Positions 20,664 through 23,711 of a stretch of DNA of 32,671 nucleotides are shown here, in pieces (positions within the stretch are counted from its first letter, which is position 1; the number at the start of each line of letters is the position of its first letter). The notes beneath the pieces were generated by a model. The model was not told where the DNA came from. It saw nothing but the letters and a program-made list of their open reading frames with translations, and did not search any database. The DNA is from an uncultured Pelagibacteraceae bacterium. GTDB lineage: Bacteria > Pseudomonadota > Alphaproteobacteria > Pelagibacterales > Pelagibacteraceae. Position numbers and translations under genes: made by a program. The stretch is from contig CABZPB010000011.1 of NCBI GenBank assembly GCA_902527485.1, positions 1 to 32,671 of the forward strand. The letters run 5' to 3'.

Positions 20664-22097
20664 TTAAGAATTTTTGTCTCCAACATATACTGAAACACCT
20701 CTAGAATTAATATCAACATCAAATTTTTTGTGTAAAGGAGGAAAAGCTCTCTGAGAACAGTCTAATCTATCACATGTCCTACATGACACACCTATTGGTA
20801 TTTCTGTGGATTTGTCGTTAATGTTCAAATTTTCTGAGTAAATAAACTCCTTAGCATATTTTGCTTCGCATCCCAGTCCTATCGATAAAATACTTTTCGA
20901 TTGTCCAAATCTTCCAATTCCTTTTTCAACTGTTCTAGCAATACATACGTACTTTTCGCCATTGGACATTTTACTCACTGCAGCTTGAATAACCCCAGGT
21001 CTCGTCAAAGCTGAGTAAACGTTCCAACGTGGACAAGCACCTCCATATCTTGGGATTTCTATTCCAGATAAAGAAAATCTTTTAGAAATATTTCCGGCCA
21101 TATCCACTCTTAAAAAATGAAATGGAATTCCTGGTAATTTTGGATCTTGTAAACAAGTTACTCTATGCGCTACTTGTTCAAAAGAAGTCGCAAAGGTGTT
21201 TTGCAATAATTCTAAATCATATTTTAGCTTTTTACATTCCGCATGAAATAATTTATAGGGCATTAGTATTGCCGCTCCACAGTAATTTAATAATGCAACT
21301 TTAGTCAATTTTTTAGACTCATCGGAAGGAAATTTGAATTTAGTTAAATATTCCTCAATTTCTTTATCAGAACCTTCTTGAGCTATTTGGGCGGCTGCAT
21401 GAAGTTTTTTTGTTTCTAGAGAACTATAGTCACTTAATAAAAGCTCTTTTTTATTTTTTCGATATATCTTAGAAAAAGGTTTTTTTTCCTCTGGAATAAC
21501 ATCTTTTACAGTTATGTCATATTCTGATTTTAAATAATCACATAGAGATATATATCTTGTTCGATTATTTTTTTGAACTTTTTCAAAAACTTTATTTGCA
21601 AAATCTTCTAATTTTGGAAAATAGTTTTTATGTTCTTGTAAAAAATCTGAAATAACTTCGCCTGGAAACGAATTTTTTCTATTATCAACGATCTTACCAG
21701 ATATTGTCTCAATTTTATTGATCATTTCGTGATCTTTCTTTTTTAAAATATCTCCCAATCTTACTATTGCTCTGCCAATTTTAGGATTTGTACCAACAAG
21801 ATCTTTAACTTCTGGGGCTAAAATATCTAAATCTTCAAACAATTTATCATCAAGAATTTCTGACAAAGTATTTTCTAAATTAATGTCAGTTTTTGAGGTT
21901 AATTGAGAAAGCTCAATATTCAGCTTTTCACAAACTTTTAAAAGTAAATCTCCATCTATTTTTCTTTTGCCACCCTCTATTAAGTTTAAATAACTGGGTG
22001 AAATATTTAAATCTTCGGCTAATTTGTTAGCTTGAAGACCTAATTGTCTTCGAAAAGCCTTGATTTTTGGTCCCAATTTTAAATCTAATTGACTCAT
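20664..22097 (-). CDS. ScfR/RamB/PrpR-type transcriptional regulator (XRE HTH + IrrE-like + C-terminal Cys domain)
   Basis: 477 residues. Residues 8-62 are an XRE helix-turn-helix (IKAFRRQLGLQANKLAEDLN...SPSYLNLIEGGKR). A central IrrE-like (DUF955) region near LETKKLHAAAQIAQEGS lacks a clear HExxH zinc motif, as I expect in this family. The C-terminal DUF2083-type domain ends with CRTCDRLDCSQRAFPPL, a conserved Cys cluster. Relatives (RamB, PrpR/Rv1129c, PccR) control acetate, glyoxylate and propionate genes in response to acyl-CoA. Placement divergent from aceA, with a repeat array between, strongly suggests autoregulation and control of isocitrate lyase. Confidence 0.9.
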   Translation of the reverse strand: MSQLDLKLGPKIKAFRRQLGLQANKLAEDLNISPSYLNLIEGGKRKIDGDLLLKVCEKLNIELSQLTSKTDINLENTLSEILDDKLFEDLDILAPEVKDLVGTNPKIGRAIVRLGDILKKKDHEMINKIETISGKIVDNRKNSFPGEVISDFLQEHKNYFPKLEDFANKVFEKVQKNNRTRYISLCDYLKSEYDITVKDVIPEEKKPFSKIYRKNKKELLLSDYSSLETKKLHAAAQIAQEGSDKEIEEYLTKFKFPSDESKKLTKVALLNYCGAAILMPYKLFHAECKKLKYDLELLQNTFATSFEQVAHRVTCLQDPKLPGIPFHFLRVDMAGNISKRFSLSGIEIPRYGGACPRWNVYSALTRPGVIQAAVSKMSNGEKYVCIARTVEKGIGRFGQSKSILSIGLGCEAKYAKEFIYSENLNINDKSTEIPIGVSCRTCDRLDCSQRAFPPLHKKFDVDINSRGVSVYVGDKNS

Positions 22098-22104
22098 ATT
22101 TTCT

Positions 22105-22207
22105 ATTTGTAAATTTTGTAAATTTATTTTTACAAAATTTTTCTATGATTTACAAGCCTTTTTAACTTTTAAGTAGATTTTGTAAATTTTGTAAATTATA
22201 AGATTTA
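22105..22207. promoter_or_regulatory. Array of TTTGTAAA sites between the regulator and aceA side (putative operator)
   Basis: TTTGTAAATTTTGTAAA, a 9 bp-spaced pair of TTTGTAAA, occurs twice: at 22106-22122 and 22179-22195. Reverse copies follow at 22129-22136 (TTTACAAA) and 22149-22156 (TTTACAAG), and a partial TTTACAT overlaps the small ORF start. The consensus differs by one base from TTTGCAAA, the core reported for ScfR-family regulators such as PccR and PrpR. One cluster abuts the regulator start and the other the small ORF start, a layout for divergent control. Confidence 0.75.
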
Positions 22208-22208
22208 C

Positions 22209-22370
22209 ATGGAAGAAAAATTAAAAAACACTGAAAAAGAAGCTCAAATCATCAGACATGAAGATCTAGCTAGACACAATAGCAGAGGGATCTACATGCG
22301 AGATGACCATTGTGACTGGGGTTCTAGTGGAATGAACGATTTAACTGAGACACTTACAGAGTCAAACTAA
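22209..22370 (+). CDS. 53-residue unrecognised ORF upstream of aceA
   Basis: Missed by the track. ATG is at 22209 and TAA at 22368-22370. The sequence contains IIRHEDLARHNSRGIYMRDD and ends in an acidic, Thr/Ser-rich tail; there is one Cys in HCDWGSSGMND. It is hydrophilic without a signal or membrane helix, and its composition (several Asp, His, Arg, Trp) is unlike random AT-rich sequence, which supports coding. It starts directly after the second TTTGTAAA cluster and ends 63 bp before aceA. It has no obvious Shine-Dalgarno, so a leaderless start is possible. I do not recognise a family. Confidence 0.65.
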   Translation: MEEKLKNTEKEAQIIRHEDLARHNSRGIYMRDDHCDWGSSGMNDLTETLTESN

Positions 22371-22433: not shown

Positions 22434-23711
22434 ATGAGTGCTGAAAATATCTCATACGATTTAAAAAGATTTGCAGGGATTAAAAGAGATTATACTCCAG
22501 AAGAAGTTGAAAGACTTAGAGGTTCTATTAAAATTGAATATTCAATTTGTAAACAACAATCCATAAAACTGTGGAAATTGTTAAATACTGAAAATTATGT
22601 AAATACTCTTGGGTCCCTGTCAGGCAACCATGCAGTCCAACATGCAAAAGCTGGTTTAAAAGCAATTTATTTAAGTGGTTGGCAGGTGGCTGCTGATGCT
22701 AACAGTGCAGGAGAAATGTATCCTGATCAATCTTTATATCCTTATGATAGCGCTCCGAAATTAGTAGAGTCTATGAATAATGCATTAATTAGAGCTGATC
22801 AAATCCAACATATGGAATTAAAAGATGGCGATATGAAAAAAGAAAAAAGAATTGATTATATGCTTCCAATTATAGCTGACGGTGAGGCAGGATTTGGTGG
22901 ACCTCTAAATGTATTTGAGCTCGCAAAAAAATTTATTAAAGCGGGTGCTGCTGGCGTTCATTTTGAAGATCAACTGGCGAGTGAAAAAAAATGTGGGCAT
23001 ATGGGTGGTAAAGTACTAGTTCCAACAGGTACGATGATTAAAAACTTAAAAGCTGCTAGGTTAGCAGCTGATATTGCAGATGTTCCTTTGATTATTTTAG
23101 CAAGAACAGATGCTAATGCTGCTAAATTAATTACAAATGATTTTGATGAAAATGATAAACCTTTCTTAACTGGAGAAAGATCTCCAGAAGGTTTCTATTA
23201 TGTAAAAGCTGGTATAGAACAAGCAATATCAAGAGGTCTTGCTTACGCACCCTACTCAGATTTAATTTGGTGTGAAACAGCAACACCAAATCTTGAAGAG
23301 GCCAAAAAATTTGCTGATGCAATTCATGAGAAATTTCCTGGAAAACTTTTAGCTTATAATTGTTCTCCATCGTTTAATTGGAAAAAACATTTATCGGATG
23401 AAGAAATAGCATCATTTCAACAAAAAATTAGCCAAATGGGTTATAAATTTCAATTTATTACACTAGCAGGATTTCATACTCAAAACATTGCTATTTTTGA
23501 ATTAGCAGAAAAATATAAAAAAGAAGGTATGGCTGCATACTCAAAAATTCAACAACTAGAATTTGCTCGTGAAAAAGATGGGTATACAAGCGTAAAACAT
23601 CAAAGAGAAGTTGGTACATCTTATTTTGACGCGGTGTCAAATACAATAAGTAGTGGTAAAAGTGCGACTACGGCAATGGAGGGCTCAACAGAGTCAGAGC
23701 AATTTCAATAA
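22434..23711 (+). CDS. aceA: Isocitrate lyase
   Basis: 425 residues, close to the 434 of E. coli AceA. The catalytic loop is KKCGHMGGK with Cys187. Metal and substrate segments [18 protein letters not shown] and ARTDANAA are intact, and [13 protein letters not shown] is conserved. It splits isocitrate to glyoxylate and succinate, the first step of the glyoxylate bypass. AAAGGAAAC, 5-8 bp before the ATG, is a good ribosome site. It is probably co-transcribed with the 53-residue ORF and controlled by the divergent ScfR-type regulator. No malate synthase gene is in the window. Confidence 0.98.

Follow-up and report, generated by a model that had tools for sequence, protein, structure and literature searches.

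A conserved array of paired boxes between scfR and aceA in Pelagibacter as the probable operator of a class-2 RamB-like regulator

The window analysed here is the whole of a 32,671-nucleotide stretch of DNA from an uncultured Pelagibacteraceae bacterium (contig CABZPB010000011.1). The SAR11 bacteria, to which it belongs, are the most abundant bacteria in the ocean and have few transcription regulators. Within the window, a gene for an ScfR-family regulator is divergent from a small open reading frame (ORF) and the isocitrate lyase gene aceA, and an array of repeats lies in the intergenic region. The features are as follows, with boxes lettered in order from the scfR side.

20664 to 22097, minus strand: scfR, ScfR-family regulator of 477 aa with HTH_3, M78-like, and ScfRs C-terminal domains
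Between 22097 and 22209: scfR/small-ORF intergenic region, 111 bp
22106 to 22122: site 1, TTTGTAAA-T-TTTGTAAA, formed by boxes a and b and placed upstream of the scfR start codon at a distance of 8 bp
22129 to 22136: box c, inverted half-box TTTACAAA, the reverse complement of TTTGTAAA; its TTTACA core is invariant in 64 loci
22149 to 22156: box d, inverted half-box TTTACAAG, kept also in three other SAR11 genera
22179 to 22195: site 2, TTTGTAAA-T-TTTGTAAA, formed by boxes e and f; its start follows that of site 1 by 73-74 bp in 64 of 64 Pelagibacter loci
22197 to 22202, plus strand: TATAAR, -10-like element of the leader/aceA unit by conservation, one base past site 2
22209 to 22370, plus strand: small ORF of 53 aa with the core RDDHCDWGSSGM, ahead of aceA
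22434 to 23711, plus strand: aceA, isocitrate lyase of 425 aa (NF011645, 724 bits, cutoff 562)

The copies of TTTGTAAA start at 22106, 22115, 22179, and 22188 on the plus strand. Within each pair the starts are 9 bp apart, leaving one base between the 8-mers. The first-pass annotation, made from the letters of the sequence, had described tandem pairs with this spacing and reverse copies; these are present where it placed them. The conserved feature is bigger than was first noted, taking in half-boxes c and d and the TATAAR element as well. In 20,000 dinucleotide shuffles of the 111-bp intergenic region, which is 85% A+T, not one tandem pair arose, where the actual sequence has two. The 32.7-kb window holds mildly more single TTTGTAAA-type 8-mers than expected, 16 against 9.15, with one in 100 shuffles reaching 16, thus isolated boxes carry little meaning. 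Across the 832,549 bases of the source genome (approximately 69% complete), the only exact pairs are sites 1 and 2, so the genome scan that had been proposed for further pairs returned the scfR/aceA locus and nothing else. No sign of a wider regulon of the paired box was seen in 12 genomes at one mismatch or fewer, where matches away from the locus are about as frequent as those of the reversed-pattern control (mean 2.6 per genome). Two such one-mismatch matches were checked and both are within long open frames. The repeats of the array are real, above chance, and conserved.

A total of 147 genomes of the order were searched, and conservation of the boxes was assessed in 64 alignable Pelagibacter loci. 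An scfR gene was identified in 69 of the 147. Together with a strong isocitrate lyase match it is present in 68; two genomes have aceA only and one has scfR only. All three of these exceptions are cut by contig ends, and in one of them, genome G092, the array and the beginning of the scfR coding sequence can still be seen. Wherever the flanks can be read in SAR11, the order is scfR, array, aceA, with aceA divergent and, in Pelagibacter, the small ORF in between. Both pairs and the two inner inverted half-boxes are present in all 64 alignable loci. The mean weighted conservation of the boxes is 0.91-1.00 (0.996 for box b), compared with 0.68-0.69 for the spacers between them. The distance between the starts of the pairs is 73 bp in 53 loci and 74 bp in 11, which corresponds to seven helical turns. 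The distance from the small-ORF stop to aceA is variable in the same loci, at 25 to 82 bp. A composite pattern of boxes a to d was found in 62 of the 147 genomes, one copy in each, with zero for the reversed-pattern control and no match in those of the 147 that have no aceA. Gene order that persists where the repeats are lost was the outcome that the first-pass annotation had set against its own reading; in related genomes the two are kept together.

Outside Pelagibacter, in three other SAR11 genera with regulators that are about 60% identical, the scfR-proximal pair is flipped and box d is farther from site 2 by 10 bp. Nevertheless, three of the four loci from these genera keep a distance of 74 bp between a GNAAA core in the first site and site 2, the fourth having been read from a different start. 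Nine Pelagibacter genomes that are 92-98% complete have no isocitrate lyase, scfR, or array (G030, G056, G078, G112, G116, G129, G141, G142, and G145). For some members of the genus the whole scfR-array-aceA module thus appears to be dispensable.

On the side away from scfR the locus varies. Downstream of aceA there is an ABC-2 type transporter in the window, as against a set fitting the iron(III) transporter sfuABC in genome G011. The order in the latter (locus L186) is an ABC transporter set with sizes that fit sfuABC, aceA, the small ORF, and scfR, which fits the locus tags SAR11_1236 to SAR11_1242 (PMC2864753).

The core of the small ORF, RDDHCDWGSSGM, is near-invariant; in Pelagibacter it is found ahead of aceA, with a single copy in each genome. 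Searches of Pfam and NCBIfam with the small ORF gave no match. A related DWGSSG peptide is encoded ahead of aceA in another genus (L069). In 61 of the 64 loci the small-ORF ATG is 13 nt past box f, and because of this position its mRNA may be leaderless.

The hexamer one base past site 2 is TATAAA or TATAAG in 58 of the 64 loci. The match to a -35 upstream of it is poor, at 3 of 6 positions in 55 of the 64. A simple scan of the region found no sigma-70-like promoter above the level of shuffles, thus it is by its conservation that the hexamer is assigned as a -10. The search for a promoter of scfR yielded no assignment. With the hexamer as the -10, the aceA-side transcript would begin at the small-ORF ATG or beside it, and site 2 would be at about -30 to -14. 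Box d was considered as the -35 for this element and rejected, as it is approximately 48 bp away and too far.

The regulator encoded beside the array belongs to the ScfR family, as had been recognized in the first-pass annotation. It scores 198 bits for PF09856 (cutoff 24), 41.2 for HTH_3 (cutoff 23), and 40.3 for Peptidase_M78 (cutoff 22), and aligns over some 400 residues with the structures of Mycobacterium tuberculosis PrpR (MtPrpR) at an E value of 2.4e-61. It is probably the orthologue of SAR11_1242 of strain HTCC1062. With the NF038139 equivalog for class-1 RamB it scores 361 bits, which is below the cutoff of 700. Class-1 RamB, of the Corynebacterium type, has a role in acetate and glyoxylate metabolism. 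It is of the ScfR family like the SAR11 protein, yet its boxes have C where those of SAR11 have T.

The [4Fe-4S] cysteines of the window protein are Cys 355, 439, 442, and 447, matching Cys363 and the C-X2-C-X4-C of MtPrpR. All four are kept in every protein compared, these being from 61 Pelagibacter, 4 other SAR11, and 27 class-level loci. The CoA-pocket residues H319, R338, K347, and R348 of MtPrpR are also kept in the SAR11 ScfR. K217 and K410 are not kept, in loops where the alignment is less sure. F155 is replaced by Gly and R159 by Ser, while F240 (residue 232 of the window protein) is Leu or Ile in SAR11 only, being Phe in 27 of 27 other alphaproteobacterial relatives. In MtPrpR, F240 is one of two residues that stack on the CoA adenine and the change F240A abolished the response, F155 sets the choice of ligand, and the [4Fe-4S] cluster controls CoA binding. 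The Leu or Ile at the F240 position suggests that CoA binding is altered in the SAR11 protein and, since both F240 and F155 are changed, the ligand may differ or bind more weakly.

Six Pelagibacter genomes (loci L035, L038, L039, L041, L063, and L064) encode an ScfR of approximately 564-580 aa that has two tandem HTH domains. On the protein tree this trait requires three changes, perhaps a single gain followed by two losses. Both HTH domains retain a SxSYLNLIExxKR-like recognition segment. A chain with two such domains fits one HTH per 9-bp repeat, but the operators of these genomes resemble those of genomes in which the protein has a single HTH.

Boxes of this kind are known from relatives of the regulator. 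The class-2 RamB of Paracoccus denitrificans (Pden_1365) has two verified boxes, TGACAAACCTTACA and TGACAATACTGACT (PMC10370305), as read from the oligonucleotides, wild-type and mutated, that the study gives. Like the SAR11 protein it is an ScfR-family protein encoded beside its glyoxylate-cycle target, and in each of its boxes, as in the SAR11 pair, T(G/T)AC half-sites are repeated in tandem with a 9-bp period. On the other strand the SAR11 pair reads TTACAAAATTTACA, which is identical to TGACAAACCTTACA at 11 of 14 positions and to TGACAATACTGACT at 9 of 14. A consensus, TKACAAAYYTKACA, was drawn from the two verified boxes and the SAR11 and class-level pattern. Both SAR11 pairs match it at 13 of 14 positions, the top score in the window and one that two isolated single sites (4777 and 2509) also reach. 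The P. denitrificans protein represses the glyoxylate operon on succinate and activates it on acetate. Its binding to DNA does not require an added ligand, and it goes from tetramer to dimer with CoA esters, of which beta-methylmalyl-CoA is the best (PMC10370305). Its [4Fe-4S] cluster has been confirmed (PMC10370305), and in SAR11 the cluster cysteines are conserved. That an ScfR protein governs the glyoxylate operon in this species agrees with aceA as the likely target in SAR11, as the first-pass annotation had it. There are also differences. In Paracoccus there are two 14-bp boxes 18 bp apart, both of which are needed, whereas the full pairs of SAR11 start 73-74 bp apart, have two inner inverted half-boxes between them, and include a site beside the -10. 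The Paracoccus target is a malate synthase-isocitrate lyase operon, while the SAR11 unit is the small ORF and aceA without malate synthase.

The 17-bp site of MtPrpR consists of two 8-bp boxes with one base between them and is found also upstream of icl1 (PMC6765138). This is the same layout of two 8-mers as in SAR11, from a protein that is related over 400 residues and shares the four [4Fe-4S] cysteines, and it bears out the earlier statement that ScfR relatives bind boxes of this type. The MtPrpR boxes, TTTGCAAA and TTTGCgAA, have a C where all of the SAR11 pairs read have T. The main target of MtPrpR is the methylcitrate operon, and in the SAR11 protein other residues stand at the positions of F155, R159, and F240 in its pocket.

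The T in place of C had been taken in the first-pass annotation as a possible AT-adapted version of the box. This does not hold, as GC-rich Alphaproteobacteria and the verified P. denitrificans boxes carry the T-form. The comparison took in 27 other alphaproteobacterial loci, of which 22 have a divergent aceA; in 14 of the 27 there are 19 TTTAC/GTAAA repeats with a period of 8-10 bp, compared with 0.07 in shuffles. TTTGC repeats are found in one of the 27. Several of these intergenic regions are 50-61% G+C and, with relatives as rich in GC as this retaining TTTAC/GTAAA, AT drift from TTTGCAAA was rejected. Judged from these loci and boxes, this branch normally uses the T-form, which is general to Alphaproteobacteria with an scfR-aceA pair. 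Paired TTTAC and GTAAA boxes also lie upstream of the top-scoring regulator from outside SAR11 (L188, genome G280; 43% identity). This regulator adjoins other genes, with aceA not nearby.

It is very probable that the SAR11 array functions as an operator, and the best reading is a class-2 RamB-like one with an arrangement distinct from that verified. Binding of ScfR to the array is predicted with high confidence, and local control of both scfR and aceA is only slightly less secure. That the array is the operator through which the adjacent class-2 RamB-like ScfR controls both of the divergent transcripts is probable. Each 9-bp repeat would hold one HTH domain, so that a tandem pair takes two. 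The pairs are seven helical turns apart, therefore one tetramer or two dimers could be bound on the same face of the DNA. In the default state, scfR and the leader/aceA unit would both be repressed; this is the most likely default because site 2 abuts the -10 and site 1 adjoins the scfR start codon. The bound state would be lost through acyl-CoA, the state of the [4Fe-4S] cluster, or both, turning on the glyoxylate shunt and the regulator together. A repressor site released by ligand is thus the most likely form of the switch, with a dual switch as the alternative. The sign of regulation is not transferable from P. denitrificans, since RamB also activates there and has boxes 18 bp apart. Repression rather than pure activation is favoured for SAR11 by a modest degree. 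Acyl-CoA, the signal foreseen in the first-pass annotation, is to a similar extent preferred; it is plausible and not assured, because Phe240 is Leu or Ile in SAR11 and F240A abolished the MtPrpR response. An iron-sulfur input to ScfR is possible, and tentative.

The same operator and regulator could instead serve mainly for ligand-dependent activation of aceA, with site 1 for autoregulation. Site 2 would then take the place of the poor -35, recruiting or reshaping RNA polymerase at a strong -10. The poor -35 match beside a conserved TATAAR-type hexamer agrees with this, and P. denitrificans RamB, Rhodobacter sphaeroides PccR, and MtPrpR all activate in some conditions. However, with TATAAR as the -10, the 17 bp of site 2 would fall within the core promoter (about -30 to -14), a position that is commoner for repressors, and for M. 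tuberculosis RamB, repression of icl1 has been described as the likelier role (PMC6765138). A mainly activating role is considered the less probable of the two.

The repeats could also belong to a different protein, such as Fur or another iron or energy regulator. A 2011 search by Steindler et al. for repeats combining tandem and inverted copies gave motifs ahead of SAR11_0964, SAR11_1242, and five further genes (PMC3090418). The repeats upstream of SAR11_1242 in that study are likely to be the boxes of the array. Fur was given there as a tentative candidate, the locus does respond to iron, and the regulator gene responds to light. The same authors reported no classical Fur box in HTCC1062 (PMC3090418), and the paired box is confined to the scfR/aceA locus, tracks the presence of scfR and aceA, matches ScfR sites, and is found beside scfR in other Alphaproteobacteria. 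Ownership by Fur or a similar regulator is thus very unlikely. The high A+T content and the inverted repeat formed by boxes b and c could suggest low complexity or a hairpin in a 5' leader. Yet tandem pairs did not arise in the shuffles, the spacers have drifted around boxes that stay fixed, and a hairpin does not need a tandem orientation. Nor is there a terminator-like site above shuffles in the region. A search of Rfam was without match, and a riboswitch or other Rfam RNA was rejected on this basis. That the array is an RNA-level or compositional feature is the most improbable of the explanations. An operator for the adjacent ScfR, most likely a repressor site, is preferred over all of these.

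Published microarrays of HTCC1062 under iron limitation have aceA (SAR11_1240) 1.58-fold up (P 0.091) and the regulator SAR11_1242 1.60-fold up (P 0.054), so that the two rise together, with small changes (PMC2864753). SAR11_1242 is also higher in light (PMC3090418). In the literature searched, it is these iron and light studies only that mention SAR11_1242. It is conceivable, although rather doubtful, that ScfR reads the state of its [4Fe-4S] cluster besides or instead of acyl-CoA. Iron scarcity would itself then open the glyoxylate shunt, through a single-locus, helically phased RamB switch at the core promoter, for which the two-HTH chain of some lineages would match the two-box site.

In the literature searched, no regulator had been assigned to the induction of isocitrate lyase under iron limitation or to the response of the regulator gene to light. 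A candidate regulator, the exact DNA boxes, and two transcripts can now be named. A different owner can also be proposed for repeats that were probably seen in 2011 and tentatively tied to Fur. In addition, the T-form is general to Alphaproteobacteria with the scfR-aceA pair, as far as can be judged from the loci compared, which corrects the idea that the SAR11 box is an AT-drifted one.
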